Origin: an uncultured Bacteroidales bacterium
Lineage (GTDB): Bacteria > Bacteroidota > Bacteroidia > Bacteroidales > Muribaculaceae
DNA: 64,000 bases
Direction of reading: 5' to 3'
Assembly: GCA_947573135.1 (NCBI GenBank)
Contig: CANPDU010000013.1
Coordinates: 1 to 64,000 of the forward strand
Part shown: one piece after another, positions 44,767 through 64,000 of the stretch
Layout of the letters: the number at the start of each line of letters is the position of its first letter
How positions within the stretch are numbered: position 1 is the first letter of the stretch
Notes under the pieces: model-generated
What the model saw: only the letters and a program-made list of their open reading frames with translations
What the model was told of the DNA's origin: nothing
The model's database searches: none
Program-made: the position numbers and the translations under genes

Positions 44767-44789
44767 CAATCATATAGTTTTATTCTTTA

Positions 44790-46135: not shown

Positions 46136-46157
46136 ATTATTTCCCGGATCCAACACT

Positions 46158-48155: not shown

Positions 48156-48157
48156 GA

Positions 48158-48841
48158 TTAAGCGCGACGGGCGAGTTTGCGGGCGAGCTTTTCGGCTCTG
48201 CGCCGCTCGGCTCTCGACAGCCTCACGGGAGCGGCAGGTTCAGTGTGATCAGAAGCCTCTGAGATCTCTGAGTGCTCAGAGTCCTCAGAGTGCTCGGAGT
48301 TCTCTGAGATCTCTGAGGCCGCGAGAGTGATCAGCGCGTTATTGACGCTTTTGGTCGTGTCATCGGCCACGACGAGCACCGACAGCCGGCATTTCACCTG
48401 CAGGGCGACAAGGCGTTTCATGATATATGCGACCGAGGCATTGCGGCCGAACGACAGCGCCGCGATGCGGTTGACCGAATCGATCACAAACGTGCGGATC
48501 GAAGTTGTCCGTATCGCCTGTTCGATAGCCTCGAACACCAGATCGGCATAATCGGCCGTATCGTCGATCGACTCATATTCAGGAGTAAACACATAGAAAT
48601 TGTCGCTGTAGACAGTCTTGCCTGCATATTGATCGATATGCTCCGCGGCATTGACATAGAGCACCTCGCGGCCCGACCGGGAAAGATCAGACGCGATAGC
48701 GAACGCTTTTGCTGTCTTGTCGATGTCGCGCGGACCGTGGATCAGCGCCGTCGTGCCTTCTTTCCATTTGTTTTCATAGAGAAAGACTGATTTTTTTACT
48801 TCCGAGAAAAAATTGTTTGCTTTAATAAATTTGTGTTCCAT
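48158..48841 (-). CDS. P-loop-like protein with degenerate Walker A and Ser-Glu repeats
   Basis: A 227-residue protein of RecA/KaiC-like layout, not assigned to a named family. The nucleotide loop is HGPRDIDKTA (36-44), with Asp in place of the usual second glycine. A Walker-B-like segment TFVIDSVNRIAAL lies near 115-127, and LSVLVVADDTT forms a further strand. From about 176 to 197 it has eight tripeptide units of S-E/D-x (SEISENSEHSEDSEHSEI and on), encoded by imperfect 9-bp DNA repeats (48255-48317), and then a very basic tail (RAERRRAEKLARKLARRA). This makes a nucleic-acid-binding tail plausible; nothing else is known to me. Confidence 0.75.
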   Translation of the reverse strand: MEHKFIKANNFFSEVKKSVFLYENKWKEGTTALIHGPRDIDKTAKAFAIASDLSRSGREVLYVNAAEHIDQYAGKTVYSDNFYVFTPEYESIDDTADYADLVFEAIEQAIRTTSIRTFVIDSVNRIAALSFGRNASVAYIMKRLVALQVKCRLSVLVVADDTTKSVNNALITLAASEISENSEHSEDSEHSEISEASDHTEPAAPVRLSRAERRRAEKLARKLARRA

Positions 48842-48877
48842 ATTTTTTGTTATTTTGAATGATTAATTTGTTTACTG

Positions 48878-48885
48878 CAAAGTTA
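48878..48885 (-). promoter_or_regulatory. -7 element of the P-loop-like gene
   Basis: The minus strand reads TAACTTTGC, an exact match to the -7 consensus, with about 36 nt to the ATG. A TTTTG box lies 25 nt upstream, slightly too far for a normal -33 element. Confidence 0.5.
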
Positions 48886-48912
48886 TAGAGTAAAATCGCA
48901 GTATTTTTAGCA

Positions 48913-48934
48913 AAATCGGACGTTTGTCCGATTT
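48913..48934. promoter_or_regulatory. Palindrome AAATCGGAC-N4-GTCCGATTT
   Basis: Nine-bp perfect inverted arms with spacer GTTT lie in the 390-bp gap between the P-loop-like gene and the export operon. The core CGGAC/GTCCG is the same word as in the cluster at 49085-49140. It lies 27 nt upstream of the -7 box of the minus-strand gene, so it could act on either side. Between 48935 and 49084 I see only A/T-rich DNA. Confidence 0.5.
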
Positions 48935-49084
48935 AATCTTTATTAAGAATTTAATCTTAAGTCCTTCAGCAGATTGCTCAAAAAAAAATTTTAGCTGAAC
49001 GTAATTTTTAACAATTAAGACGAAAATTAAGACGTCAGACCGCATCACCGACGTCGTTCATAGCAATATCGCGTTACGGCAAGG

Positions 49085-49140
49085 TGTCCGCGATTGTCCG
49101 ACTGTCCGATTTAGGGCACAAATCTGTCCGAAAACGGACA
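49085..49140 (+). promoter_or_regulatory. TGTCCG site cluster, putative activator binding region
   Basis: Four TGTCCG words (49085, 49095, 49103, 49125) end with an inverted CGGACA (49135-49140); the last two form the perfect palindrome TGTCCG-N4-CGGACA. The cluster lies 45-100 bp upstream of the sigma-54-like promoter, the distance expected for an NtrC-type activator, and such a regulator is encoded at the far end of the operon. Confidence 0.55.
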
Positions 49141-49184
49141 ATCGTCATTTTTGGTCATTACTGATTGACAGCGTATTAACCATA

Positions 49185-49200
49185 TGGCACGGTTTTCGAT
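49185..49200 (+). promoter_or_regulatory. Sigma-54-like promoter of the export operon
   Basis: TGGCACG (49185-49191) is an exact -24 box. After the usual N4, TCGAT (49196-49200) stands where TTGCA/T is expected, so the -12 box keeps T and G but loses the C of GC. The predicted start near 49211 gives a leader of about 22 nt to the ATG at 49233. No TAnnTTTG box lies in this stretch. Confidence 0.55.
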
Positions 49201-49232
49201 ACAATAATGTGCAAAAACAAACATATCTTACA

Positions 49233-50480
49233 ATGGACCGACAAATCACCAAAGCCGAACGTCGCGCATCGCTCCGACGCACAATAATAAAATACGTTAT
49301 CGTCGCTGTCGCGATAATCGCAGCCGCATGGGCCGTATTCGCATGGTCGCGGTCGTCAGTCAAGCTCTCGGAACTCAAGATCACCACCGTCACCCGGGGC
49401 GACATCGAGACGACAGTTACAGCTTCGGCCAAGATCACGCCTGCATTTGAGGAAATAATCGTTTCGCCGATCACATCGCGCATCGTCGAAGTCTACCACC
49501 GCCCCGGCGACGAGGTCGAAGCCGGCACACCGCTGCTGCTGCTTGACATCGAAAGCGCACGCACTGACTACGAAAAGCGTCTCGACGCCCTGTCGGCTTC
49601 GCGTCTGCAGCTCGAACAGCTCAGAGGCAACATCCGTACAAAGCTCAGCGACCTCAAGATGCGCATCAAAGTGACAGAAATGAAGGTCAAGCGCCTCGAA
49701 GCCGAACTCGCCGGCGAACGCTACCTCGACAGCATCGGCAGCGGAACAACCGACCGTGTCCGCGAAGCCGATTTCGCCCTCAGTTCAGAGCGTCTGTCGC
49801 TCGAGCAGCTGCGCCAGCAGTACAGCAACGAACAGATGGCGTGCGAGACCGACATCAAAATGAAACAGCTCGAAATCGAGATCAGCGAAAAAGAACTGAC
49901 CATGCTGCGGCGCACTCTTGCCGACGCCGAGATCCGGGTGCCGCGCCGCGCCACTGTCACCGAGATCAGCGATCAGATAGGCTCACAGATCGGAGCAGGC
50001 TCACAGATCGCCCGCATCGCCGACCTCGACCACTATAAAATCTCGGCCGATGTACCCGACGGATACGCCAATCAGATATCATTGGGATGCCGCACTCACA
50101 TGAAAATCAAGGGTAACGACATCGACGGAAAAGTCGTCAGCATATCGCCTACGTCGTCCAACGGCATGATATCATTTACCGTCGTGCCCGACTGCGACAG
50201 CGTGTCTGTGCTTCGGCCAGGCCTCAAAGCCGACCTCTATGTCAATTCGGGTCTTTGCTCCGATGTGCTCCGCATCGACAACGCTCCATTCTACACCCAG
50301 CCCGGAGTCTACAATCTCTATGTCAGAAACGGCGATGAGATCGAACTGCGCAGAGTGCAGCTCGGACTCGCCAGCTACGACTACGTCGAAGTGATCTCCG
50401 GACTCAGCGAAGGCGAGGAAGTGGTGACAAACGATCTGAGTCGCTTCAAAGGAGCCCCGGCGATAAAATTAAAGAAATAG
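49233..50480 (+). CDS. HlyD/MacA-type periplasmic adaptor protein
   Basis: About 415 residues from the ATG at 49233, chosen over an in-frame GTG at 49209 because it suits the promoter. An N-terminal membrane anchor (about 19-37) is followed by a barrel-sandwich half (FEEIIVSPITSRIVEVYHRP, then GDEVEAGTPLLLLD). A long coiled-coil hairpin (about 105-225, rich in Leu/Glu/Arg) leads to the second lipoyl half (RATVTEISDQIGSQIGAGSQ), a beta-barrel domain and a membrane-proximal domain. It should link the inner-membrane permeases to the TolC-type channel encoded at 61856. It is the first gene of the export operon. Confidence 0.92.
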   Translation: MDRQITKAERRASLRRTIIKYVIVAVAIIAAAWAVFAWSRSSVKLSELKITTVTRGDIETTVTASAKITPAFEEIIVSPITSRIVEVYHRPGDEVEAGTPLLLLDIESARTDYEKRLDALSASRLQLEQLRGNIRTKLSDLKMRIKVTEMKVKRLEAELAGERYLDSIGSGTTDRVREADFALSSERLSLEQLRQQYSNEQMACETDIKMKQLEIEISEKELTMLRRTLADAEIRVPRRATVTEISDQIGSQIGAGSQIARIADLDHYKISADVPDGYANQISLGCRTHMKIKGNDIDGKVVSISPTSSNGMISFTVVPDCDSVSVLRPGLKADLYVNSGLCSDVLRIDNAPFYTQPGVYNLYVRNGDEIELRRVQLGLASYDYVEVISGLSEGEEVVTNDLSRFKGAPAIKLKK

Positions 50481-50515
50481 CTTTTGATTAATAAATAAAA
50501 CGACGAATGTGACAT

Positions 50516-50584
50516 GAGCCGGCAGCCGGCCACCTATGGTTCATGAATCCGATTTTAGGTATTAAAGATATCACATACCGGCTC
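50516..50584 (+). other. Nested hairpin in the gap between adaptor and first permease
   Basis: GAGCCGG (50516-50522) pairs with CCGGCTC (50578-50584). Inside, ACCTA (50532-50536) pairs with TAGGT (50556-50560), enclosing a near-palindrome GGTTCATGAATCC. This gap of 152 nt is the longest within the operon. The structure may be an attenuator, an RNA-processing site or an operator; no T run follows. Confidence 0.4.
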
Positions 50585-50632
50585 CGCCTCATGGATCATT
50601 CATCACCCGACAGACCATCAGATTAAAATTAC

Positions 50633-51940
50633 ATGATACTGACCCACTTCAAACAAGCCCTGCAGTCGATCAGACAAAACCGCCTGTTCTCGACGATCTA
50701 TATCGCAGGTACGGCGCTGGCGATCGCTTCGACAACAGTGTTTGCCATCGTCTACTACATCAAATATGCACCCGTCTACCCCGAGTACAACCGTCAGCGC
50801 ACCGCGACGCTCAACGCCGTTTATTACAATCCGGAACACACTGTCGGTTCAGGCATACCTTATGATCTGGCCACCGGCTGTCTGAGCAAGGTCGACAACG
50901 CCGATGCGGTCGCAATGTACTATGAGGCACGTGCCGTGCCGGGAAGAATAAACTACAACGACGGCAAATCAAATCTCGGCGTAAATGTAAAACCGGTAAA
51001 CACTGCTTATTTCGAGGTGTTTCCCTTCGAGTTCATCTCTGGCAGAGCGTTCAGTCAGGCAGAATTTGACGGCGGAACAAGAGTTGCTGCCATCAGCGAC
51101 AGGATCGCTGAAAAAGTTTTCGGAACAACTGAGGGTCTGACGGGAAAAAACATCTCGCTGAACTATACCGACTACACGATCACCGGAGTCTTCAGAGAAG
51201 GCACCCGGCTTTGTCGCAACTCATTCGCCGAGATATTCATACCTTACACGGTCATTCCTAATTACGAAAAAAAGACCGACATGAGCAAAATGCTTATAAC
51301 AGGTGCATACACACTCATCTTCCTCACCGACGACCCCGATGCCCTCCAGTCGGAACTGAATGAAATAGCGCGGCGCCTCAACAGTCAGCCCGGAGATGAA
51401 GAGGGCAAAGAGACCTATTATTTCGACAATACCCTGAAAGACAATTTTGCAATGGCTTTTGAAGGAGACAGTCTGTTCGAACGCGACGACAATTCAATTA
51501 ATGCCCTCATCAGGAAATGCCTGCTCATACTGATTGTGCTGCTGATCGTGCCGGCGCTCAATCTCAGCGGCATCATAGCAGGGCATATGGAAGAGCGTCG
51601 CGGCGAGATCGGTGTGCGCAAATCTTTCGGCGCCACCGGCAACAGGATGCTCAGCCAGATATTATGGGAAAATCTTGTCCTGACGCTTTTTGGCGGTATA
51701 ATAGGGCTTGTTGCCGCATGGCTGATAATCTGTTTCGGCGGAAACTGGATCTTCGTCAGCATAGGTGATTTCACGATCAGCGGTTCTGCCGATGTAAGAA
51801 TCAATCCGGAGATGCTTTTTGCGCCGGCCGTCTTTCTGTTCTCTTTCACACTGTGCCTGATATTGAACCTTCTGTCCTCGCTGCTGCCGGCAAAACTGGC
51901 TGTCAGCAAGCCTATTGTTGAAACGATAAATTCCAAATGA
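50633..51940 (+). CDS. FtsX/MacB-type permease A1
   Basis: A 435-residue A-type permease. TM1 (about 20-42, TIYIAGTALAIASTTVFAIVYY) is followed by a large periplasmic domain (about 43-285) and three more TM helices (about 288-310, 340-365, 395-420). The cytoplasmic loop after TM2 has GEIGVRKSFGATGNRMLSQI, the conserved coupling segment of the FtsX family. It is the most diverged A copy. Its end overlaps permease B1 by 4 nt (ATGA). Confidence 0.9.
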   Translation: MILTHFKQALQSIRQNRLFSTIYIAGTALAIASTTVFAIVYYIKYAPVYPEYNRQRTATLNAVYYNPEHTVGSGIPYDLATGCLSKVDNADAVAMYYEARAVPGRINYNDGKSNLGVNVKPVNTAYFEVFPFEFISGRAFSQAEFDGGTRVAAISDRIAEKVFGTTEGLTGKNISLNYTDYTITGVFREGTRLCRNSFAEIFIPYTVIPNYEKKTDMSKMLITGAYTLIFLTDDPDALQSELNEIARRLNSQPGDEEGKETYYFDNTLKDNFAMAFEGDSLFERDDNSINALIRKCLLILIVLLIVPALNLSGIIAGHMEERRGEIGVRKSFGATGNRMLSQILWENLVLTLFGGIIGLVAAWLIICFGGNWIFVSIGDFTISGSADVRINPEMLFAPAVFLFSFTLCLILNLLSSLLPAKLAVSKPIVETINSK

Positions 51941-53244
51941 TCATGATATCACTGATAATAAAAAATTTGTGGCACCGCCGCGTGGCCAATATATGGCTCT
52001 TTATCGAGCTCGTTGTCGTCACTGTCGTGACCTGGGTCATCATCGATCCTGTCGTCGTGAGAGTCTCTGACCGCTGTCTGCCGCTCGGCTATGACGAAGA
52101 CCGGCTTTTCTATATCTCGCTTAACGAGCAGCCGTCCGGATCGCCGTTGTATAATGAAAATGCCGACAACAATGAGAGCCGCGAAAAAGATATCGACCGC
52201 ATTGTGATGAAGCTAAACTCTATTGATGGGATTGAATCGGTCGGAGTCACGGCAATACCCTTAAACATGATAGCAGTCATCGAAAGCTATAAATGCGGCG
52301 ACGAAAAGACTGACTCCCTTAACAAAAGCATATTGCACGATGCTTTCGAGATAAAAGACAAGATTTTCAGCACTATCGGAGCCGAGGCTGCCGACGGATG
52401 CCCGTCAGTTGAAGAACTTGAAAACATGTCGTTCGGCTACAATGACATTATCCTTACCGAAAGCGCCGACCGCTTCTATTTCCCCGACCACCGCGGGGTC
52501 AATAAGAAATTCCTTAAAAAGCGTGTCGGGCCTGACCATCTTATCGAATGCAAAGTGGTCGGTGTGCTGAAAGACATAAGACTCGTAAACACTGACCGCA
52601 ATACAGCATATGCGTTTCAGAACTATCACTCAAACTTCCGTGTGCCGTCTCTTCTTATCGTGAGACTGAAAGACGGCATAAATACCGAAGAATACATCAG
52701 CGACAACCGCGAGCTCCTGCAGGCCGCAGCCACGACAGTCAACTATTATGTATCAGATATAGTGTCTGTGGCCGAGAACAACCGTACACTTGAAGAGCGA
52801 AAAGGAATTACGGCAAACCGCAACCTGCGCGTCTCGCTCGCTGCGCTGTTTCTGCTCAATCTGATCCTGGGTATTGTCGGCACCGTCTGGCTTCAGACGC
52901 GCCGCCGCATCTCGGAAATCGGTATCCACCGGTCGTTCGGCGCGTTTAGATTCAACATCCGATCGATGATCGTGGGCGAGAATGTCCTGCTGGCTTTGTG
53001 CGCTGTCGCTGTCGGACTGCTGATATATCTGCAGTATGCCCTCAAAGAAGGCCTCTACGACTCTCAGCTGGGCGCCGGCCAATATATCACAAACCACTCC
53101 TGGGTAACGGAGTTCGGTGTCCATTTCGCTATTGTGTCAGCGATTGTGGCGGCAATTATTATCGCGTGTGTCGTCGCCGGCACATGGATCCCGGCGCATC
53201 GGGCCGGCAAAATCGCTCCTGTCGACGCTCTCCGTGACGAATAA
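51937..53244 (+). CDS. FtsX/MacB-type permease B1
   Basis: A 435-residue B-type permease; the ATG at 51943 (MISLIIKNLW) fits the other B copies better than the overlapping ATG at 51937. TM1 lies near 16-36, the periplasmic domain about 37-300, and then come three TM helices. The FtsX coupling segment is SEIGIHRSFGAFRFNIRSMI. It ends AGKIAPVDALRDE, where the other three B copies end SRIEPVDALRDE. It presumably forms a heterodimer with A1. The ATPase gene follows after 49 nt. Confidence 0.9.
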   Translation: MIMISLIIKNLWHRRVANIWLFIELVVVTVVTWVIIDPVVVRVSDRCLPLGYDEDRLFYISLNEQPSGSPLYNENADNNESREKDIDRIVMKLNSIDGIESVGVTAIPLNMIAVIESYKCGDEKTDSLNKSILHDAFEIKDKIFSTIGAEAADGCPSVEELENMSFGYNDIILTESADRFYFPDHRGVNKKFLKKRVGPDHLIECKVVGVLKDIRLVNTDRNTAYAFQNYHSNFRVPSLLIVRLKDGINTEEYISDNRELLQAAATTVNYYVSDIVSVAENNRTLEERKGITANRNLRVSLAALFLLNLILGIVGTVWLQTRRRISEIGIHRSFGAFRFNIRSMIVGENVLLALCAVAVGLLIYLQYALKEGLYDSQLGAGQYITNHSWVTEFGVHFAIVSAIVAAIIIACVVAGTWIPAHRAGKIAPVDALRDE

Positions 53245-53293
53245 TCAACAACGTAAATCAACAATAAAAATTAACCATAAAAAACTACAAGTC

Positions 53294-53965
53294 ATGTCAA
53301 CAATCATCAAATTAACCGACGTTTCAAAAATCTACCGTACGAAAACCATCGAGACTCAGGCGCTCGACAGTGTCAACCTCGACATCAACACCGGCGAGTT
53401 TGTCAGCATCATGGGTCCGTCGGGCTGCGGCAAATCGACCCTGCTCAACATTATCGGTCTGCTCGACAAACCGACCACCGGCACCGTCGAACTCTGCGGC
53501 CGCACAGCCGAAGGCCTGAAAGACAAGGCTCTCGCACGTCTGCGCAACGAGACTCTCGGCTTCGTGTTCCAGAGCTTCCATCTGATCCCCACCCTGTCGG
53601 TTCTCGACAACGTGACCGTGCCGCTGATCTACCGCCCGGGATCGCGCAACAACCGCAAACTCGCCCTCGAAGCCCTCGACAAAGTCGGTCTTAGCCACCG
53701 CGTCCACCATATGCCCTCGCAGCTCTCCGGCGGCCAGGCCCAGCGCGTCGCCATCGCCCGTGCCATCGTCGGCAACCCCTCGATCGTCCTCGCCGACGAA
53801 CCCTGCGGCAACCTCGACTCAAAAATGAGCGGCGAGATCATGGATCTGCTCCACTCGCTCAACCGTGAGGACGGACGCACAATCGTGATGGTGACCCACA
53901 ACGAGGATCAGGCCCGCGCCACCGACCGTATCATCCACTTCTTCGACGGACGACGCGTAGAATAA
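53294..53965 (+). CDS. MacB/LolD-type ABC transporter ATPase
   Basis: About 222 residues from the ATG at 53294 (an in-frame extension to 53117 overlaps B1 and is rejected). Walker A GPSGCGKS is at 41-48, the Q-loop near 92, the signature LSGGQ at 143-147, Walker B IVLADEP about 163-169 and the switch histidine in MVTHNED (201). It is the only ATPase in the operon and lacks a membrane part, so it must serve the separate permeases, probably all four pairs. Confidence 0.95.
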   Translation: MSTIIKLTDVSKIYRTKTIETQALDSVNLDINTGEFVSIMGPSGCGKSTLLNIIGLLDKPTTGTVELCGRTAEGLKDKALARLRNETLGFVFQSFHLIPTLSVLDNVTVPLIYRPGSRNNRKLALEALDKVGLSHRVHHMPSQLSGGQAQRVAIARAIVGNPSIVLADEPCGNLDSKMSGEIMDLLHSLNREDGRTIVMVTHNEDQARATDRIIHFFDGRRVE

Positions 53966-53979
53966 GAGCTTGTTTAATA
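53963..53979 (+). repeat. 17-bp match to the left end of the MITE
   Basis: TAAGAGCTTGTTTAATA at the end of the ATPase gene is identical to bases 27071-27087, that is the duplicated TAA plus the first 14 bases of the MITE end. The stop codon TAA of the ATPase is part of the match. No second end is nearby, so this is at most a remnant. Confidence 0.5.
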
Positions 53980-54000
53980 GCACCAATCAGCCGAAAAAAA

Positions 54001-55284
54001 ATGATAGCGACCCACATCCGTCAGGCTTGGCAGCTGCTCCGCCAGAACAAGCTGTTCTCGACGATCTATATTGTCGGAACGGCCCTCGCCATTGCCTCAA
54101 CTACAATTTTCGCCATAATCTACTACGTCAAGCTCACTCCGGTCTATCCCGAGTCCAACCGCTACCGCATGGCGACGATCGACCGTGTCGAGCAGAAAGA
54201 TGACTGGTCTTCGATGCAGAGTTCTCTGTCCTACTCTTCGATTGGTCAGTTTAAAAACAATCTCAAGAGTGCGGAACTCATCTCGGCTTATCAGAGACTT
54301 TGGGGCGGCAACCGAATGACTTTCAACGACGGTCGCCGTGACCGCAATGTGACTCTCCGTCCGACCGACACGGCTTTTTTCAAAATTTTCAACTATGATT
54401 TCCTTGCCGGAGCGCCGTTCAGCGACGTCGACTTCGAAAGCGGAGTGCGCAAAGCCGTGATCTCCGACCGCCTCGCCGAGGAAGTTTTCGGATCGGTCGA
54501 TGAAGCCGTCGGCAAAACCGTCACTGTTGATTTCAGGAAATATGACGTCTGCGGTGTGATACGCGAAGGAAGCGCCATCAACCGTCACTCGTTCGCCGAT
54601 GTGATCATACCCTACACTGTGTTTGACAACTATGCCGGAAATAACGATCCCGATACTTACACCGGGAAATACAAGATCCTGCTGCTGACCGACGACCTTC
54701 CGGCCGTGCAGGCAGAGATAAAGGAGATGGAACGCAAATATGAAAGCTCACATCCCGGCAAGGAACTCAACTTTTGGAACCAGCCGCAGTCGGCGGCAAT
54801 CGACGCTCTCGGCATCGATCCGGTCGACGAAGACTTCGATCTGGGTAAATTTGTCCGTTACAACTTTCTGGTGCTTCTCACTCTTCTCCTCGTTCCGGCC
54901 CTTAATTTGAGCGGCATGATCGCCGGACGCATGGAGTCGCGCAGCGGCGAGTTAGGTGTCCGCAAATCGTTTGGCGCTACCGACGGTTCGCTGATGAGTC
55001 AGGTTCTGTGGGAAAATCTCATCCTCACCGTCATCGGCGGAGCGATCGGCCTCGGCCTGACGTGGATCACACTGTCGACCGATGCGACATTCGTACTGTC
55101 GATCATCGGAGAGAAATGGTTCGACTTCAATTCGGCAGCGACCGTGCGTCTGACGCCCGACATGATGTTTGCGCCGGCTATATTCCTCTTCGCTTTCGGA
55201 GTCTGCATCGTGCTCAACCTGCTCTCCGCCGCGCTCCCTGCCTGGCTCGCGCTGCGGCGCCCGATTGTCAAATCTCTAAAATGA
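54001..55284 (+). CDS. FtsX/MacB-type permease A2
   Basis: A 427-residue A-type permease starting MIATHIRQAWQLLRQNKLFS. TM1 is about 20-42 (TIYIVGTALAIASTTIFAII), the periplasmic domain about 45-280, and the last three TM helices end RRPIVKSLK. The coupling segment is GELGVRKSFGATDGSLMSQV. The N-terminal 45 residues are almost the same as in A3 and A4, while the periplasmic domain differs strongly. It begins 35 nt after the ATPase gene. Confidence 0.9.
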   Translation: MIATHIRQAWQLLRQNKLFSTIYIVGTALAIASTTIFAIIYYVKLTPVYPESNRYRMATIDRVEQKDDWSSMQSSLSYSSIGQFKNNLKSAELISAYQRLWGGNRMTFNDGRRDRNVTLRPTDTAFFKIFNYDFLAGAPFSDVDFESGVRKAVISDRLAEEVFGSVDEAVGKTVTVDFRKYDVCGVIREGSAINRHSFADVIIPYTVFDNYAGNNDPDTYTGKYKILLLTDDLPAVQAEIKEMERKYESSHPGKELNFWNQPQSAAIDALGIDPVDEDFDLGKFVRYNFLVLLTLLLVPALNLSGMIAGRMESRSGELGVRKSFGATDGSLMSQVLWENLILTVIGGAIGLGLTWITLSTDATFVLSIIGEKWFDFNSAATVRLTPDMMFAPAIFLFAFGVCIVLNLLSAALPAWLALRRPIVKSLK

Positions 55285-55293
55285 TAATGGTCT

Positions 55294-56589
55294 ATGTTTA
55301 AACTGATAGTCAAAAACTTGTGGCAGCGCCGCCGTCAGAATGCGTGGCTCTTTGCCGAACTGATCATCGTCACAGTTCTGACCTGGATCATCGTCGATCC
55401 GACAGTCGTAGGGCTGTATGACCTCAATGCGCCGCTCGGCTACGATGCCGACCGTATTGTCAGAGTAAGCGTCGCGACATATCCCGAAGAAGCAGAGCAA
55501 TATGACTCGCTGGTTGTGACCGACGAGGCCTACGAGGCACTTCGCGCAAAGGCCGACCGACTGCCTGAGGTCGAAGCCGTCTCATATCTCTCAATGGGAA
55601 TAGACGACAACAGCTCCATCAACAATGGCTTAGAGACCGGTAACGAAGCCGTAGATACCGTCGTCGGCGCTATCTACGGATATAATATTGTGCCGGGCGA
55701 AAAATTTTTCACGCTCTATGGCATCGAGCCGACCGAAGGATCGCCGTCGGCCGAAACTCTTGACTCCGGGATTCTGGGCGAACGCGATCTTATCATAACC
55801 GAGTCGGTCGACAAAGCTTTCTGGCCCGACCGCCGCGGACTGAAAGACAAAAGGTTTATAGCCTACACCAAGGACGGCGACACGACCTGGCGTAACGTAA
55901 TCGCAATCGTCAAAGATTTCCGCTTCCACGCCGCCACACGCACAGGTGCTGTCTCCATGGGAAAGTATAATTATCCTCTCGAAAAAGAGTACATTGACCT
56001 GACCCTGCGCCTCGCCGACGGAGTCGATGCCGAAGACTATGTCCGCGACTACACCGACGCAATCACCAAGGAACTGCAGATCGGCAATTATTATGTCAGC
56101 GACATCATTACCCAGCGGCAGCAGATCAGTAAAATCGAGACTACAAGCGGAGCAGCGTCTCGGCGCAATCTCCACTTCTTCGTCGCCGCTCTGTTTCTCG
56201 TCAACCTGATCATAGGTGTAGTCGGATGCGTGTGGCTTCAGACCGGCAAGCGCGTGCAGGAAATCGGAGTGCTTCGCTCTTACGGCGCACGTCGCCGCAA
56301 TATCGTCCGTATGCTCATCGGCGAGTCGGCCGTTCTTGCCACAGCCGCCTTTATCATCGGAGACCTTATTTATCTGCAGTATGCGCTCAAAGAGGGGCTC
56401 TCAGACGGCGTCGAGAACAACGCATACTACATCCCTGCCGAAACGTGGATCACTGATTTCGGAGAGCATTTTGCAATCATCTCGGCTATAGTCTACGCTA
56501 TAATTCTGATCTGCGCTGTCATAGGCACCTACTTCCCGGCTCGCCACGTGAGCCGCATCGAACCCGTCGACGCCCTGCGCGACGAATAA
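55294..56589 (+). CDS. FtsX/MacB-type permease B2
   Basis: A 431-residue B-type permease starting MFKLIVKNLWQRRRQNAWLF. A single TM (about 17-38) is followed by a periplasmic domain and three TM helices with the coupling segment QEIGVLRSYGARRRNIVRML. The C-terminus VIGTYFPARHVSRIEPVDAL is identical or nearly so in B3 and B4. It follows A2 by 9 nt. Confidence 0.9.
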   Translation: MFKLIVKNLWQRRRQNAWLFAELIIVTVLTWIIVDPTVVGLYDLNAPLGYDADRIVRVSVATYPEEAEQYDSLVVTDEAYEALRAKADRLPEVEAVSYLSMGIDDNSSINNGLETGNEAVDTVVGAIYGYNIVPGEKFFTLYGIEPTEGSPSAETLDSGILGERDLIITESVDKAFWPDRRGLKDKRFIAYTKDGDTTWRNVIAIVKDFRFHAATRTGAVSMGKYNYPLEKEYIDLTLRLADGVDAEDYVRDYTDAITKELQIGNYYVSDIITQRQQISKIETTSGAASRRNLHFFVAALFLVNLIIGVVGCVWLQTGKRVQEIGVLRSYGARRRNIVRMLIGESAVLATAAFIIGDLIYLQYALKEGLSDGVENNAYYIPAETWITDFGEHFAIISAIVYAIILICAVIGTYFPARHVSRIEPVDALRDE

Positions 56590-56604
56590 TTATTATTTAA
56601 GACA

Positions 56605-57888
56605 ATGATAACAACTCATTTCAAACAGGCATGGCAGCTGCTGAGGCAGAACAAGCTGTTCTCGACGATCTACATCGTCGGAACAGCTCTCGCTATTGCA
56701 TCGACTACAATCTTCGCAATTATATATTATGTGAAGTTGGCGCCCGTCTACCCGGAGTACAAGCGGCATCAGATCTATACCGTCTCCAACATCGAGGTAG
56801 AAGACACTGACGGAATGCTGATGGGATCTCCGTCTTTCTCTTACAACCTGCTCGACAATCTGTTTTATAAACTTGACAATGCAGAGGCTGTGTCGGGCTA
56901 TATCGTTGAGCCCGGTCTTAAGGTGCTGACCGTTCCCGGCTCTGAAAAAGTCTATGAGGTGATGAAACGCCGCACGGATACGAAATATTTCAAGATAATC
57001 GACTATGAGTTCATTGCCGGCAGACCCTTCAGTCAGGCTGAATTTGAAAGCGGCGCGCGTAAACTCGTCGTCAGCGACCGCATGGCCGAAAAAATATTCG
57101 GTTCGGCGGAAGCGGCAGTAGGAAAGACAGTCAGCGTCGACTTTTCCGACTATGAGATCTGCGGAGTCTTTCGCGAGGGCAGCGCCCTCAACTCGATGTC
57201 ATATAATCATGTCATCACGCCCTACACTGACGACGAAAACTATAACAGTTCGTACGATGAGTGCTGCGGAAGGTATCAGGCCCTGATACTGACAGACAAT
57301 CCGGATGGAATGACAAGCGAAATCGAAGACTACTATCAGAAATACAAGTCGACCCACGAGGGCCGTGAACTTGTCTTCCCGAATCAGCCGCGTTCGGCAG
57401 TCATCCGCGCGCTTAACCCCAGAAACGACGAAGACTTCGACCTCATGTCAGTAGTCAGGCTCAACTTCCTGATACTGCTCACCCTGCTCATCGTTCCGGC
57501 GCTCAATCTCAGCGGCATGATCGCAGGCCGCATGGATGCCCGCAACGAAGAACTATCGGTCAGAAAATCGTTCGGAGCCACGTCACGCCGTCTGCTCAGT
57601 CAGGTGCTGTGGGAGAACATGTTCCTGACGCTTGCCGGCGGCATCATCGGTCTCTGTCTCACATATCTGACACTGTATGCCGCATCTGATTTCATCGTGG
57701 CGAGCATAGGAGCCGCCGGACAAATGTGGATGGACAGCGCTATCGAGATGCATCTGACACCCGACATGATGTTCGCCCCGGCCGTGTTCGTCGGCGCGCT
57801 GCTCATCTGCGTTGTGCTCAATCTCATGTCCGCGCTCATACCGGCATGGCACGCGCTCCGTCAACCTATTGTGAAATCAATGAAATAA
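56605..57888 (+). CDS. FtsX/MacB-type permease A3
   Basis: A 427-residue A-type permease. Its first 110 nt are nearly identical to those of A4. TM1 is followed by a periplasmic domain of about 240 residues with its own sequence (it has a Cys-Cys pair, DECCGRYQ). The coupling segment is EELSVRKSFGATSRRLLSQV, and the C-terminus RQPIVKSMK. It lies 15 nt after B2. Confidence 0.9.
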   Translation: MITTHFKQAWQLLRQNKLFSTIYIVGTALAIASTTIFAIIYYVKLAPVYPEYKRHQIYTVSNIEVEDTDGMLMGSPSFSYNLLDNLFYKLDNAEAVSGYIVEPGLKVLTVPGSEKVYEVMKRRTDTKYFKIIDYEFIAGRPFSQAEFESGARKLVVSDRMAEKIFGSAEAAVGKTVSVDFSDYEICGVFREGSALNSMSYNHVITPYTDDENYNSSYDECCGRYQALILTDNPDGMTSEIEDYYQKYKSTHEGRELVFPNQPRSAVIRALNPRNDEDFDLMSVVRLNFLILLTLLIVPALNLSGMIAGRMDARNEELSVRKSFGATSRRLLSQVLWENMFLTLAGGIIGLCLTYLTLYAASDFIVASIGAAGQMWMDSAIEMHLTPDMMFAPAVFVGALLICVVLNLMSALIPAWHALRQPIVKSMK

Positions 57889-57894
57889 TCAGCC

Positions 57895-59205
57895 ATGTTG
57901 AAGATAATTTTCAAAAATCTGTGGAGCCGCCGATCAAAAAATGCGTGGCTGACAGTCGAACTTATCGTAGTGACTTTATTATCGTGGATAATTATCGACA
58001 GTGCTGTGGTCAGTCTGCACGACAGCAATTCCGATCTCGGATACGACGCCGACAGGATTATCAATATCACTATGGAGTGTATCCCTCGCGACGCTCCGAC
58101 GTTCGACAACTCGGCTTACGACCCGGAAGTCGCTAAGCAGCAGTTTGAGACCATGCTATTTAAAGCCTCGACGCTGCCTGAAGTCGAACGAATGTGTCAT
58201 AACTATAGCGGCATCAACGGCGACATGTGGATGTCAACGCCCATGTTTACCGGCGATCAGGCCATCGACTCGATCGCCCCGCTGGTCACGAAGATCGGGT
58301 TCTTAGGCGATGAAAAGCCGCTGTCGGTCTACGGCATAGAAGCAGCCGAAGGTTCGCCTTCGGTCGAGGAGCTGGAAGCCCGTCCGCTCGGCCCCAACGA
58401 TCTTATCATCACCGAGTCGATCGACCGTTACTACTGGCCCGACCGCCGGGGGATCAAAGACAAATATTTCATCGAACCCTATTCGCGTGATTCGACCCGC
58501 CTCAATGTTGTCGGCATAGTCAGGGATTTTCGCCACAAATCGTTTGTTCGCTCCGGCGCGACCTTCATTCAGGGTAAGGAACACTATAAAAATGAATATT
58601 ACAACAAAACGACTCTGATTTTGCGCCTGAAGCCCGGCATCGATGCCGATCAGTATATCCGCGACAATATCGCGCAAATCACGTCGCAACTGCGCACCGG
58701 CAACTACTATGTACGCTCTGTCCAAAACCAGCGGCAGATGATCGGTGAGGAGGAATATTCTTACGGCATAAGCTCACACCGCAATCTGATGATATTAGTC
58801 GCCGCACTGTTCCTGATCAATCTGATTGTCGGAGTGACGGGCTGCGTATGGCTTCAGACCGGAAAACGCATTTCCGAAATGGGTGTGCTGCGGTCGTTTG
58901 GCGCCCGGAAATCACAGCTCATGCGTCTGCTTATCGGCGAGTCCGCCGTTCTTGCCACGATTGCCTGTCTGATCGGAATTTTCATCTATTTCAACTACGC
59001 TCTGTCGCATGGTCTTGCCTGCGGATTTGAAGATAATAGCGAGTATATGCCCGACAACTCATGGGTCAACAGTTTCGGAGCCCATTTTGCAATTATCTCG
59101 GCTATAGTCTATGCTATAATTCTGATCTGCACTGTCATAGGCACCTATTTCCCTGCGCGTCACGTCAGCCGCATCGAACCGGTCGACGCCCTGCGTGACG
59201 AATAA
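57895..59205 (+). CDS. FtsX/MacB-type permease B3
   Basis: A 436-residue B-type permease starting MLKIIFKNLWSRRSKNAWLT. The coupling segment is SEMGVLRSFGARKSQLMRLL. The last 130 nt are almost the same as in B2. The periplasmic domain shares the YYWPDRRGIKDK motif with B2 and B4 (xxWPDRRG), which may be a contact point to the A partner or the adaptor. It lies 6 nt after A3. Confidence 0.9.
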   Translation: MLKIIFKNLWSRRSKNAWLTVELIVVTLLSWIIIDSAVVSLHDSNSDLGYDADRIINITMECIPRDAPTFDNSAYDPEVAKQQFETMLFKASTLPEVERMCHNYSGINGDMWMSTPMFTGDQAIDSIAPLVTKIGFLGDEKPLSVYGIEAAEGSPSVEELEARPLGPNDLIITESIDRYYWPDRRGIKDKYFIEPYSRDSTRLNVVGIVRDFRHKSFVRSGATFIQGKEHYKNEYYNKTTLILRLKPGIDADQYIRDNIAQITSQLRTGNYYVRSVQNQRQMIGEEEYSYGISSHRNLMILVAALFLINLIVGVTGCVWLQTGKRISEMGVLRSFGARKSQLMRLLIGESAVLATIACLIGIFIYFNYALSHGLACGFEDNSEYMPDNSWVNSFGAHFAIISAIVYAIILICTVIGTYFPARHVSRIEPVDALRDE

Positions 59206-59234
59206 TTACTTTTAAAACCTCATTCATACCGACA

Positions 59235-60521
59235 ATGATAACTACTCATTTCAAACAGGCATGGCAGCAGCTGAGGCAGAACAAGCTGTTCTCGACGATC
59301 TACATCACCGGAACAGCTCTCGCCATTGCCTCGACTACAATCTTCGCCGTTATCTATTACGTCAGACTCGCGCCGGTCTATCCGGAATTTAAACGGCAGA
59401 ATATCTCGACAGTCGAAGGTGTCTCTTATGATACAGAAAGAGGCTCTCATACTAATTTTCCGGGGGTGTCACGGCAAGCGCTGGAAAATGTTTTTTCTAA
59501 GTTTGAAAATGTCAGGGACGTATCAGGCTATCTCAATAATTTCGTTTGCGACATAACGGCCGACAAAAAACCGACGTCAGTAAGCGTAATGCTGACTTAT
59601 ACCGATCCGGCCTTTTTCCGCATCATGGATTATGATTTTTTAGCCGGTGGCCCGTTCAGTCAGGACGATCACACCTACGCCGTCAAAAAAGTTGCTGTCA
59701 GCGATCAGATTGCATCACGCTTTTTCCCCTCGCCCGAAGAAGCGGTCGGCAAGACAATCTCTATTGACTTCACGGATTATGAAATATGCGGAGTCTTCGT
59801 CGAAGGCAGTGCCATAAACCGGCTGTCATACGCTCAGGCTTTCGTATCGTTCAACACCTCAGGCTTTGTAAATTTTGCCCCGAAAGATAACCCGGACGCA
59901 GGACCGCTAAAACTGATCATTCTTAGCGATAATCTGTCAGGAGTCAAGGAAGAACTCGCCGAATACTGCCGCAAATTCAAAGCGACTCATGACGGCCGTG
60001 AATTTAATTTTCACGATCAGCCGCGACCGGCTTATGTGAGCGCATTGAATCCGGAGCCTATGGCAGAATTCGACCTTATGAAAATAATCCGCTTCAACGC
60101 TCTCATACTGCTCACCCTGCTGATCGTGCCGGCGCTCAATCTCAGCGGTCTGATAGCAAGCCGCATGGAGTCAAGACGCGGGGAAATCGGAATACGCAAA
60201 TCGTTTGGAGCCAACCGGCGCGCTCTTCTCGGTCAGGTGCTGTGGGAAAATCTGTTTCTGACTGTCATCGGCGGTGCGGCGGGTCTCGCGCTGACATGGT
60301 TGATACTGTCGACCGACGCGACATTCATATTCGCAAGCATCGGAGCACCGCTGACAGGGACAATCGACAGTTCGGTCAACGTAAGGCTGACGCCTGACAT
60401 GATGTTTGCTCCGGCAATTTTCATATTTTCATTTATTATCTGCGTCGTGCTCAATCTGATGTCGGCTATAATTCCGGCATGGAACGCCCTGCGCCACCCC
60501 GTTGTAAAATCTCTCAAATAA
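59235..60521 (+). CDS. FtsX/MacB-type permease A4
   Basis: A 428-residue A-type permease. The N-terminus (MITTHFKQAWQQLRQNKLFS) and C-terminus (HPVVKSLK) follow the A pattern, and the coupling segment is GEIGIRKSFGANRRALLGQV. The periplasmic domain again has its own sequence. It lies 29 nt after B3 and is followed by B4 after 1 nt. Confidence 0.9.
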   Translation: MITTHFKQAWQQLRQNKLFSTIYITGTALAIASTTIFAVIYYVRLAPVYPEFKRQNISTVEGVSYDTERGSHTNFPGVSRQALENVFSKFENVRDVSGYLNNFVCDITADKKPTSVSVMLTYTDPAFFRIMDYDFLAGGPFSQDDHTYAVKKVAVSDQIASRFFPSPEEAVGKTISIDFTDYEICGVFVEGSAINRLSYAQAFVSFNTSGFVNFAPKDNPDAGPLKLIILSDNLSGVKEELAEYCRKFKATHDGREFNFHDQPRPAYVSALNPEPMAEFDLMKIIRFNALILLTLLIVPALNLSGLIASRMESRRGEIGIRKSFGANRRALLGQVLWENLFLTVIGGAAGLALTWLILSTDATFIFASIGAPLTGTIDSSVNVRLTPDMMFAPAIFIFSFIICVVLNLMSAIIPAWNALRHPVVKSLK

Positions 60522-60522
60522 T

Positions 60523-61836
60523 ATGTTCAGGATAATATTTAATAACCTCCGAAACCGCCGGAAGCAGAACGGATGGCTTTTTGCCGAACTGATCATAGTC
60601 TCGATCCTTACCTGGGTAATCATCGATCCTACAGTTATCATTCTGCACGACATCACTTCAGATCCGGGATATGATGCCGACCGTATTATCAACATACGCA
60701 TCAATAATTATGAACCGGGTTCAAAATATTTTGATGTCAGCGGATATGATGCAGAAACAGCAATGAATAATTTCAACATCATCCGTTCAAAAGTCAGCCA
60801 TATGCCTGATGTTAAAAAATTCGCAGTCAGCCGCGACGTCATCAACGCCGGAAGCTACATGAGCGGACATTTTAACTCGGGCAATCCCGCCATAGACACA
60901 ATAGCCGGAAGCAGCATGACAATGGACTATTTACAGGGGGAACCGTTCTTAAGCACCTACGGACTTGAGGCCGCGGAAGGATCGCCAAGTATCGAGCAAC
61001 TGGAAACAGCATCTTTGAACTGGAACGATATCATCATAACAGAATCACTTGACCGTACATACTGGCCTGACCGCAGAGGGATAAAAGACAAACAGTTCTA
61101 TATGTTTACCTCGCAGGGCGATACACTCGTAGAGAACGTTGTGGGTATAATAAAAGATTTCAAACCGTTCTCCTACTCACAGCTCTCTGCCGTCAAATTA
61201 TGGCCGAATGAAATCGAGGATCATGAAAGTTTCAACACTATAAACCTGATAGTAAGGCTAAAGGACGGCATCGATCCGGAAACTTATATAAAAGACAACG
61301 ATAAGACCATCCGGAACGAACTGCAGGTAGGCAATTTTTATGTCAAGTCAATTGTAAGCCAGAAAGGACTGATCAGAGAATACGAAAACAAGAAGGGCAT
61401 TACGTCGCAGCGCAATCTCAACCTGTTTATAGCCGCGCTGTTTCTGATCAACCTTATCGTAGGTGTGACGGGATGCGTCTGGCTTCAGACAGGCAAAAGA
61501 GTCGCCGAGCTCGGCATACTGCGTTCTTACGGCGCACGGCGGTCTCAGATTATAAAAATGCTTATGGGCGAGAGTATCGTGCTCGCCACGGCTGCGGCCG
61601 TCATCGGATGCATAATCTATCTGCAATATGCCCTTAAAGAAGGTCTGTCGGTCGGCTACGAGGGTAATGTCGGCATAATCGCTCCCGAGTCGTGGGTCAA
61701 TAATTTCGGCGCGCATTTTGCAATCATCTCTGCTATAGTCTATGCCATTATCATTATATGTGTGATAATCGGCACTTACTTCCCGGCGCGCCACGTGAGC
61801 CGCATCGAACCGGTCGACGCCCTGCGCGACGAATAA
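60523..61836 (+). CDS. FtsX/MacB-type permease B4
   Basis: A 437-residue B-type permease starting MFRIIFNNLRNRRKQNGWLF. It carries the B motifs (TYWPDRRGIKDK; coupling segment AELGILRSYGARRSQIIKML; end RHVSRIEPVDALRDE). It lies 1 nt after A4, so the pair is likely translated together. It closes the permease array; the TolC-type gene starts 19 nt later. Confidence 0.9.
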   Translation: MFRIIFNNLRNRRKQNGWLFAELIIVSILTWVIIDPTVIILHDITSDPGYDADRIINIRINNYEPGSKYFDVSGYDAETAMNNFNIIRSKVSHMPDVKKFAVSRDVINAGSYMSGHFNSGNPAIDTIAGSSMTMDYLQGEPFLSTYGLEAAEGSPSIEQLETASLNWNDIIITESLDRTYWPDRRGIKDKQFYMFTSQGDTLVENVVGIIKDFKPFSYSQLSAVKLWPNEIEDHESFNTINLIVRLKDGIDPETYIKDNDKTIRNELQVGNFYVKSIVSQKGLIREYENKKGITSQRNLNLFIAALFLINLIVGVTGCVWLQTGKRVAELGILRSYGARRSQIIKMLMGESIVLATAAAVIGCIIYLQYALKEGLSVGYEGNVGIIAPESWVNNFGAHFAIISAIVYAIIIICVIIGTYFPARHVSRIEPVDALRDE

Positions 61837-61855
61837 ATACAAACATTCCACGATT

Positions 61856-63331
61856 ATGAAACTGAAATCAATATTCTTTACACTTGCCGCTGCGGCGACC
61901 CTGAATTCGTGGGGAGCCGACAAAATGCAGCTGACTCTCGACGACGCCATACTTCTCGCCCGCACACGGAGCGTGGATGCGGCGGTGGCTCTCAACACCC
62001 TGCGGACGGCCTACTGGGAGTACAGGACTTTCCGCGCCGGACTGCTGCCCGAAGTGACGTTCAAAGCAACTGTGCCAAGCTACAGCAAACAATACTCGAG
62101 CTATCAGAACGCCGACGGATCGTACAGCTTCGTCCACAACGACAATCTGTCGATGACCGGATCACTCTCGCTCGAACAGCGCATATGGCTGACGGGCGGC
62201 ACGATTTCGGTGACATCGTCGCTCGACTTCATGCGCCAGCTCAGCGGCACGATCGGCAACCGCTATATGTCGGTGCCCGTGGCGCTGCGTCTCACCCAGC
62301 CGATCTTCGGAGTCAACGACGTGAAATGGAACCGCAAGATCGAACCGACGCGCTACCGCGAAGCCAAGGCCGATTTCATCAGTTCGACCGAGGAAGTGGC
62401 CATGACCGCCATACAGTACTATTTCAATCTGCTGTCGTCGCGCCAGAACGAGGCTTCGGCCCATCAGAACGTCACCAACGCCGAGAAGCTTTATGAAGTC
62501 GCCATAGCAAAGCGCAAAATGGGACGGATAAGCGCCAACGACGTACTGCAGATCGAGCTAAATCTGCTCAACTCACGGTCGGCCCTGACATCATGCGAAA
62601 GTCAGGTCAAGAGCGACATGTTCCGTCTGCGCACCTTCCTCGATCTCGACACAGCGGTAGAGATCGAACCTGAGATCCCCCACATCATACCCCACACCAA
62701 GGTCGACTTTGATCTCGCGCTCGGCTATGCTCTCGAAAACAACGCCTTTGTCGACAACATACGCCGCCGGCAGCTCGAAGCCGACTATCAGGTGGCGGCA
62801 GCCAAGGGCGCGCAACGTCAGATCAGCCTTTTCGCACAGGTAGGCTACACCGGCACAGACCGTAACTTCCACGGAGCTTATGACCCTCTCAACAGTAATC
62901 AGGTCGTCGAGATAGGCATGTCGATTCCCATCCTCGACTGGGGCAAACGCCGCGGACGCGTCAAAGTGGCGCAGAGCAACCGTGACCTCGTCAGCAGCCG
63001 TATGCGCAAGGAGCGCGCCGAGTTCAGCGAAAACCTCTATATCCTCGTCGAGCGCTTCAACAACCAGCAGGCTCAGCTCGACATAGCGCGCCGCGCCGAC
63101 GAAATAGCGATGCAGCGCTATGACAGCAGCGTCGAGACATTCATGATCGGCAAGATCTCGGCTCTCGACCTAAACGACTCACAGACAAGCAAAGACAGCG
63201 CAAGGCTGAAATATCTGTCGGAACTTTTCTACTACTGGTATTATTACTATCAGCTGCGCAGCCTGACACTCTGGGACTTCCCGACCGACTCACCGATCAA
63301 CACCGATATTGAAAAAATCTTGAAAATGTGA
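61856..63331 (+). CDS. TolC-family outer-membrane channel
   Basis: A 491-residue outer-membrane efflux protein. Signal peptide 1-20 (MKLKSIFFTLAAAATLNSWG). There are two outer-membrane-efflux repeats: helical regions near 155-235 and 340-450, and strand segments such as GSLSLEQRIWLTGGTISVTS and GAYDPLNSNQVVEIGMSIPI. It completes the tripartite exporter with the adaptor at 49233. It lies in the same operon, 24 nt before the regulator gene. Confidence 0.92.
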   Translation: MKLKSIFFTLAAAATLNSWGADKMQLTLDDAILLARTRSVDAAVALNTLRTAYWEYRTFRAGLLPEVTFKATVPSYSKQYSSYQNADGSYSFVHNDNLSMTGSLSLEQRIWLTGGTISVTSSLDFMRQLSGTIGNRYMSVPVALRLTQPIFGVNDVKWNRKIEPTRYREAKADFISSTEEVAMTAIQYYFNLLSSRQNEASAHQNVTNAEKLYEVAIAKRKMGRISANDVLQIELNLLNSRSALTSCESQVKSDMFRLRTFLDLDTAVEIEPEIPHIIPHTKVDFDLALGYALENNAFVDNIRRRQLEADYQVAAAKGAQRQISLFAQVGYTGTDRNFHGAYDPLNSNQVVEIGMSIPILDWGKRRGRVKVAQSNRDLVSSRMRKERAEFSENLYILVERFNNQQAQLDIARRADEIAMQRYDSSVETFMIGKISALDLNDSQTSKDSARLKYLSELFYYWYYYYQLRSLTLWDFPTDSPINTDIEKILKM

Positions 63332-63355
63332 TGATTGTTTCGTACCTTTGTCTAT

Positions 63356-64000
63356 ATGATACTCATAGTTGATGACGATCCCGCTATCAGAGCCTCGCTC
63401 TCGCTGCTGCTGACCCACGCCGGTTATAAATGCAAAGCCGTCGCCAACCCTCAGGAGGCAATCGGCGAAGTCAGACGCGGCGCGCCCGACCTTGTGATGC
63501 TCGACATGAATTTCTCACACTTCACTACCGGCGAGGAAGGCCTCACCCTGCTGCGCCAGATCAGAATTTTCGCCCCCGAAACGCCGGTGATACTGATGAC
63601 GGCCTGGGGCAGCATAGAGCTTGCCGTGGCCGGGATGAAAGCCGGAGCATTTGACTTTATCACAAAACCGTGGGACAACAACCATGTGCTCAAGACCATC
63701 CGCACCGCCATCGATCTCAACTCAGGCCGCGGCATCGATCCCGAGCCTGACACGGAGGAGGAATTTGACCGTTGCGGCATAATCGGCAATGATCCGGTGC
63801 TCACCAATGTCCTCAACACAGTCGCACGTATAGCTCCGACAAACGCAACCGTACTTATCACCGGCGAAAGCGGCACCGGCAAAGAGCTTATAGCCGAAGC
63901 CATCCACCGCAACAGCCTGCGTCGCGACAAACCGTTTGTCAAAGTCAATCTCGGCGGCATGTCGCAGTCGCTTTTCGAAAGTGAGATGTTCGGCCACTGC
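63356..64000 (+). CDS. NtrC-type sigma-54-dependent response regulator (cut by window end)
   Basis: The first 215 residues of a gene that continues beyond the window. The receiver domain has acidic pocket D6-D8, phosphorylation Asp50 in [10 protein letters not shown]82 and K104 (FITKPWD). After a linker, the AAA+ domain begins with GESGTGKE (Walker A, 170-177) and ends here just before the expected GAFTGA loop (MFGHC). It is probably partnered by a histidine kinase encoded further right. Its position behind the export genes and the sigma-54-like promoter before them point to local control. Confidence 0.93.

Follow-up and report, generated by a model that had tools for sequence, protein, structure and literature searches.

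Can a single ATPase serve eight permeases? The question is raised by an operon in a 64,000-nucleotide stretch of DNA (the window; positions 1 to 64,000 of contig CANPDU010000013.1, assembly GCA_947573135.1) from an uncultured bacterium of the Bacteroidales family Muribaculaceae. Between positions 49233 and 63331 of the window, all on the + strand and with frames open throughout in the open reading frame (ORF) listing, lie genes for an adaptor, one ABC ATPase, four A/B pairs of MacB-fold (FtsX-type) permeases and a TolC-type outer-membrane channel, followed by a gene for an NtrC-type regulator and, beyond the window, that of its kinase. The original prediction had described one adaptor, one ATPase, four pairs and one channel in a single operon, and the ORF listing and Pfam matches confirm this composition. 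The reading that we favour, at slightly better than even confidence, is that of a MacB-like (type VII ABC) tripartite exporter in which a fixed chassis (adaptor, ATPase and channel) works with exchangeable cartridges (the permease pairs), is induced by envelope stress and handles amphipathic substrates. The features are as follows.

49125 to 49140, no strand assigned: palindrome TGTCCGAAAACGGACA, predicted operator (upstream activating sequence, UAS) of the NtrC-type regulator, from sequence
49185 to 49200, +: sigma-54-like -24/-12 promoter TGGCACGGTTTTCGAT, matching 10/12 of the consensus
49233 to 50480, +: adaptor (HlyD/MacA-like membrane fusion protein), periplasmic; Pfam HlyD_3 and HlyD_D23, NCBIfam TIGR01730
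50633 to 51940, +: permease A1; Pfam MacB_PCD and FtsX
51937 to 53244, +: permease B1, its start overlapping the A1 stop; Pfam FtsX
53294 to 53965, +: ABC ATPase (nucleotide-binding protein); Pfam ABC_tran and motif check
54001 to 55284, +: permease A2; Pfam MacB_PCD and FtsX
55294 to 56589, +: permease B2; Pfam FtsX
56605 to 57888, +: permease A3; Pfam MacB_PCD and FtsX, AlphaFold model
57895 to 59205, +: permease B3; Pfam FtsX, AlphaFold model
59235 to 60521, +: permease A4; Pfam MacB_PCD and FtsX
60523 to 61836, +: permease B4; Pfam FtsX
61856 to 63331, +: TolC-type outer-membrane channel; Pfam OEP
63335 to 64000, running off the window, +: NtrC-type response regulator (receiver, sigma-54 AAA+ domain, Fis helix-turn-helix; Pfam), whole gene at L004:336-1700
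L004:1705-3018, past the window: histidine kinase, directly after the regulator

All A proteins match MacB_PCD and FtsX and all B proteins match FtsX only, and the ATPase has its Walker A, LSGGQ, Walker B and His loop motifs. It starts at 53294, after pair 1, the listed ORF start at 53117 falling inside B1. The adaptor most likely starts at 49233 (an ATG, with the MDR- start of its relatives); position 48842, where the locus had been taken to start, is the beginning of the intergenic region. The 2.85 Mb genome (G000) holds 16 FtsX-family matches, and since eight of them are in the operon their clustering exceeds chance.

To place the operon among its relatives we used 76 loci drawn from the best 80 matches of a genome similarity search in GTDB, a sample biased to relatives of this family, to which loci from the same genus and from Bacteroides were added. 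Among the 31 complete clusters (both ends at least 1 kb from sequence ends), counting pairs as the smaller of the A and B numbers, one pair is found in 18, two in 3, three in 4, four in 4, five in 1 and six in 1, and whatever the pair number exactly one ATPase is present in 30 of these Bacteroidales loci. A contig-truncated array in genome G191 holds about seven pairs, one A gene being split and the last pair cut by the contig end; with such larger arrays in Bacteroides, eight permeases are nothing out of the ordinary. Loci with the closest ATPases in the window's own genus mostly have one pair, one has two and several are fragments, and a match to A3 at 1e-60 occurs in 29 of 149 sampled genomes of the family, with four matches only in the window's genome. 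The sole complete locus with two ATPases in its array is L041, which has four pairs.

From these comparisons one ATPase would appear to energise all pairs, provided that no further motor is at hand. The original prediction had itself worried about more ATPase genes past the window, and none was found among the nine further genes scanned toward the end region of the contig. Elsewhere in the genome, the nearest relative of the ATPase (66% identical) lies in a single-pair locus on contig C35 (L005) with an adaptor, A and B permeases, a channel, a short regulator without an AAA+ domain and a kinase, while the second-nearest (52%) lies on C28 in a set with two permeases, an adaptor and a channel; sitting in permease, adaptor and channel sets of their own, both support the view that the array has no spare motor. 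The L005 response regulator, 177 amino acids long, consists of a receiver and a Fis-like end with no sigma-54 AAA+ domain, and may depend on the other regulator, that of the four-pair operon. The third ATPase, on C19, is 43% identical, and its contig shows no FtsX-family match. It scores best against LolD (238 of 308 bits), and Pfam identifies no transport gene among the four neighbours scanned, two of which gave no match at all. As two permeases on C1 and C41 have lolCE as their best model (125-133 bits), the C19 ATPase is judged by sequence probably their LolD partner, which makes a spare ATPase for pairs 2-4 unlikely. A spare ATPase elsewhere in the genome was set aside as improbable on these grounds.

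Near-identical ATPases can have quite dissimilar pairs as neighbours. ATPase identity is at least 95% in 49 locus pairs, and 45 of these, drawn from 26 loci and hence not independent, allow the ATPase-adjoining permeases to be compared; 22 of these 45 comparisons show one or more syntenic permeases with an identity of at most 55%. In other locus pairs with near-identical ATPases the neighbouring permeases are 95-100% identical, so pairs are sometimes kept too. Between L036 and L055 the adaptors are 99% and the ATPases 98% identical, but the permeases adjoining the ATPase share 38-50% identity. Insertion accounts for part of this divergence, since L055 carries an additional pair and permeases compared without regard to position reach 80% (A) and 66% (B) at best. 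Between L041 and L049 the adaptor, channel, regulator, kinase and ATPase are 92-99% identical, and the permeases before the ATPase 66% (A) and 63% (B), falling to 56 and 46% in their ectodomains. Over 15 multi-pair locus pairs with adaptors 90-100% identical, best matches average 67% (A) and 60% (B), figures that are lowered by the inclusion of contig-truncated loci. Between the window's genome and G122, its closest relative with the whole operon, the shared parts of the array are 81% (adaptor), 84% (channel) and 91% (ATPase) identical, and those of two single-pair loci 52/63%, 71/48% and 80/83%, respectively; transfer of the chassis could also explain this stronger conservation, seen in one genome pair. 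What turns over, as judged from the sequences, is the pair content.

The pairs themselves behave as units. In trees of the A proteins and of the B proteins (76 each), built by quick search without bootstrap and with support from the SH-like approximate likelihood ratio test (SH-aLRT), the A and B distances correlate with r 0.864, whereas 500 shuffles of partners within loci gave 0.482 on average and at most 0.779. In 44 of the 58 pairs from multi-pair loci the A and B proteins share the same nearest outside pair, as is the case for pairs 2-4 of the window and not for pair 1. At the sequence level, pairs duplicate and diverge together, as obligate heterodimers would. The four pairs of the window fall, with four close relatives, in one ten-row clade (SH-aLRT 99 for A and 98 for B) separate from the Bacteroides and Prevotella-type arrays in both trees, so that the expansion of the array is, by its phylogeny, local, the relatives in the genus being mostly single-pair.

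Models of the third pair agree with the family assignment. AlphaFold gives mean predicted local distance difference test (pLDDT) scores of 90.0 for A3 and 92.2 for B3, both of MacB-type fold, with four helices of transmembrane (TM) length and a periplasmic ectodomain per chain and, in B3, a short coupling helix between TM2 and TM3 (residues 326-334) that has no separate counterpart in the A3 model. The best PDB matches found by Foldseek include MacB, Spr0694, LolCDE, HrtBA and YbbP, with query TM-scores of the top matches about 0.4-0.58. As modelled, A3 and B3 fit the MacB or type VII ABC superfamily, which is characterized by four-TM permeases with long stalk helices and a periplasmic domain between TM1 and TM2.

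Upstream of the adaptor, the palindrome (TGTCCG-N4-CGGACA) is followed after 44 bases by the sigma-54-type site, scored here and below as positions matched of the 12 in the -24/-12 consensus. Two perfect copies of the operator are present in the genome, one of them here; if one mismatch is allowed there are 9 matches and the reversed control has 7, so that only the perfect copies are informative. The genome also encodes RpoN, and a predicted sigma-54-controlled operon accordingly has its promoter, operator, activator and RpoN genes all present. Upstream of 45 adaptor-first loci (recognised duplicates dropped, 50 shuffles), a sigma-54 site of at least 10/12 was found in 27 (shuffles mean 0.86, maximum 3), TGTCCG/CGGACA half-sites in 39 (mean 3.3, maximum 8) and the spaced palindrome, in which one end base may differ, in 20; the 12 loci in which the adaptor is not first gave 0, 1 and 0. 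The promoter and operator sequences are conserved, then, among adaptor-first loci. That sigma-54 promoters are enriched upstream of COG0577 permeases in Bacteroidia is already in print (PMC12316311). Scans for sigma-70 promoters and terminators returned 27 and 11 sites, where shuffled sequence gave 13.3 and 14.6 on average, differences to which we attach no weight.

A stricter pattern (the perfect palindrome, 30-60 bases, then TGGCA) was matched 22 times, in 12 of the 21 genomes scanned, all of them selected for having such loci; the reversed control gave no match. The first gene after the match encodes an adaptor in 12 cases, an ATPase in 2, an A permease in 2 (one short), a channel in 2 and a DUF2807 protein in 3, with one unclear. 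Both of the channel genes lie outside arrays in Bacteroides-titled genomes: G193 has a complete array without a channel and a separate channel elsewhere, followed by regulator and kinase, while in G191, where the contig ends within the array and a local channel is possible, the separate channel is not followed by them. An array locus of G191 (L145, G191:C31, from contig base 15763) has a second operator and TGGCA within the array, directly before the ATPase. The DUF2807 genes preceded by operator and TGGCA are L194:4879-5811, L195:4229-5200 and L196:696-1538 in the Bacteroides-titled G188, G191 and G193. DUF2807 belongs to the Toastrack group, tied to the PSP/Lia envelope-stress systems and predicted intracellular (PMC11237479); the DUF2807 proteins here begin like exported ones, which leaves the analogy a loose one. 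The sites before detached channels and DUF2807 genes are a hint that the operon may belong to an envelope-stress regulon, with the DUF2807 proteins as candidate members.

On the favoured reading, an ATPase dimer would dock on whichever A/B heterodimer is present, any of the four, whose periplasmic domains would take substrate from the periplasm or the outer leaflet. In work on MacB (PMC5985334), the binding of ATP makes the stalks and periplasmic domains close, which drives substrate via the adaptor into TolC. A bellows-type mechanotransmission of the kind proposed for MacB could be at work here too: powered by ATP, the stalk would close and push substrate through the adaptor and channel that all pairs share. 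Each pair, having a distinct periplasmic domain, would probably have a distinct substrate, and the kinase/NtrC pair would induce the operon through sigma-54, most likely on envelope stress. We infer the sharing of the ATPase within the cell, the direction of transport, the substrates and the inducing signal, the last two from the family and from what the predicted regulon contains. Antimicrobial or other membrane-active compounds seem the likeliest substrates, in particular amphipathic ones such as antimicrobial peptides, lipopeptides and similar molecules of host or competitors, and native envelope molecules are possible. The shared motor and outlet with exchangeable modules that the original prediction had proposed draws good comparative support from the one ATPase in 30 of 31 loci, the co-evolution of A and B, the divergent ectodomains set against conserved membrane and coupling segments, and the near-identical ATPases beside different pairs. 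We regard it as supported in part; there is a small chance that the C19 ATPase is a spare one.

Several observations weigh against this reading. That LolD-like ATPase, with no FtsX neighbour, does exist in the genome, and conserved coupling segments in the permeases are to be expected also of paralogues using another ATPase. The adaptor passes the model for RND-type adaptors (TIGR01730, 98 bits against a cut-off of 95), so that its family does not single out MacA. Other FtsX-family permeases of the window's genome and G122 are themselves only 41-60% identical (reciprocal best matches). When locus pairs with the same adaptor identity are compared, the 94 multi-pair ones show no clearly greater divergence of the best-matching permease than the single-pair ones, a small sample of 9. 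The idea that array permeases evolve unusually fast was dropped, the other FtsX-family permeases being similarly diverged. Finally, the genes behind the second perfect operator of the genome fit envelope remodelling as well as defence. That operator, with a sigma-54-type site at the same distance of 44 bases, precedes L167:1916-4876 (G000:C3), encoding a 986-amino-acid outer-membrane barrel protein (OMP_b-brl_3), after which polysaccharide flippase and glycosyltransferase genes follow.

This last point bears on an alternative that we consider unlikely yet deserving of attention, in which each pair extracts or places one class of the cell's native molecules (lipids, lipoproteins or surface glycans) and envelope stress does no more than raise their supply. 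Besides the second operator and the DUF2807 genes of the predicted regulon, the fold that the permeases have in common with LolCE and YbbP, components of systems for hydrophobic envelope compounds, speaks for it; the adaptor and TolC-type channel, however, indicate export out of the cell, and pair number and content differ between related loci, unlike housekeeping genes. The permeases, moreover, score only 19-23 of 362 bits on lolCE (four of five given), and the permeases on C1 and C41 fit that model better.

A redundant array, in which four pairs with the same substrates are kept for capacity, is improbable. All four pairs did arise within one small clade and have their chassis in common, but their sequences have diverged unevenly: between copies the ectodomains are 28-46% identical against 48-91% for the membrane parts, and taken over the four copies the figures are 82% (A) and 55% (B) for the N-terminal/TM1 segment, 37 and 36% for the ectodomain and 58 and 61% for TM2-4. 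The conserved segments reflect mostly selection: at fourfold sites the copies are no more similar there than elsewhere, save for a slight excess at the B2-B4 C-termini, and recent gene conversion was discarded as the cause. Relatives also keep orthologous pairs separately.

Still less probable is that pair 1, before the ATPase, pumps alone, the rest being sensors (a role that BceB plays for a kinase) or copies in decay. In its favour, those single-pair loci of the genus whose ATPases are closest (L114, L116-L118, L120 and L121) also have their pair immediately upstream of the ATPase, and the operon has a kinase of its own. All eight frames are intact, however, which also speaks against the concern, voiced with the original prediction, that some pairs might be non-functional copies; the coupling region is conserved in every copy, and orthologues of pairs 2-4 are kept at 56-65% identity in relatives, with a synonymous divergence (dS 1.6-4.1, or not computable) that is close to saturation or beyond it, so that the ratio of nonsynonymous to synonymous substitution allows a qualitative reading only. 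G122, furthermore, has no pair before its ATPase and two after. Combinatorial assembly, by which A and B proteins of different pairs would mix into up to sixteen pumps, is the least credible alternative, conceivable from the likeness of the membrane segments (A 82/58%, B 55/61%) but at odds with the co-evolution of same-pair proteins, since shuffling within loci lowered the tree correlation in 500 of 500 trials.

Around the operon, the genes past the kinase, on the other strand, encode an esterase, a phosphodiesterase and an AMP-binding enzyme. Upstream, a Clostripain-family (C11) peptidase (43564-44769, - strand) is probably unrelated to the operon because queA-like and fructose-bisphosphatase genes lie between, and a 1069-amino-acid protein with BspA-type leucine-rich repeats is encoded at 34954-38163. 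Six proteins checked against known anti-phage systems gave only ATPase-type matches, for the ATPase alone, and no RNA family reached its gathering score in 46000-64000.

How does the operon compare with known transporters? With HlyD_3/HlyD_D23 and OEP over the Pfam cut-offs it has the adaptor and outer channel of a tripartite ABC exporter, and with MacAB-TolC it shares these components, a four-TM permease with a large periplasmic domain and the permease fold (5gko is the top match of B3, and 5lil, 5gko and 5nik are among the top for A3); it differs in its separate ATPase, a gene of its own, in the A/B pair in place of a homodimer, in the several pairs per ATPase and in the sigma-54-type promoter. 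MacB proper (NF007826), in which ATPase and permease form one protein, is not matched, the five permeases for which scores are given reaching 24-48 bits and the ATPase 224, of 966. Spr0693-0695 and YknXYZ share the MacB-like permease, adaptor and separate ATPase, and 5xu1 is the top structural match of A3; those systems are Gram-positive, lack an outer channel and have one permease gene. The best NCBIfam model of the ATPase is DarD of the darobactin exporter (248 of 375 bits) and the adaptor matches DarC (60.6 of 450), both short of the mark; DarB is a duplicated permease, and the genes flanking the operon here are not peptide-biosynthesis genes. ADOP (TIGR03434) is matched in its N-terminal half by A (137-155 bits) and in its C-terminal half by B (66-83), far below 622 for the five permeases given. 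ADOP is a duplicated permease in a single chain, and its genes are found in groups that lack ATPases; here there are two genes, and the operon also encodes an ATPase. LolCDE likewise joins a heterodimer of two MacB-fold permeases to one separate ATPase; it has one pair only, with no adaptor or TolC channel, and the operon's ATPase scores 234 of 308 bits on LolD. The models, with four TM-length helices per chain and two separate chains, do not fit the BceAB peptide-resistance transporters, in which a single long permease has about ten TM helices. Shared ATPases are familiar among importers, for example the multitasking MsmK.

In the literature searched, which lacks most subscription papers, no account turned up of a tripartite exporter that combines one ATPase with several interchangeable permease heterodimers, nor of the operator, the multi-pair arrays, their single ATPase or the turnover of pairs, as far as the accessible parts of PMC5985334, PMC8277102, PMC12316311 and PMC11237479 go. 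A wider view, which we hold plausible at somewhat less than even confidence, is that of a cartridge exporter found across the Bacteroidales, in which lineages gain, lose and replace pairs on a near-constant chassis within a sigma-54 regulon of its own for envelope stress that includes split-off channels and DUF2807 proteins, the whole forming an evolvable repertoire of resistance to gut peptides or lipopeptides. The operator sequence is a handle for finding the whole regulon. If the modules are exchangeable, swapping of pairs would map substrate choice in MacB-type pumps, and the number and type of pairs would be a measurable trait that may track the exposure of gut commensals to antimicrobial compounds.

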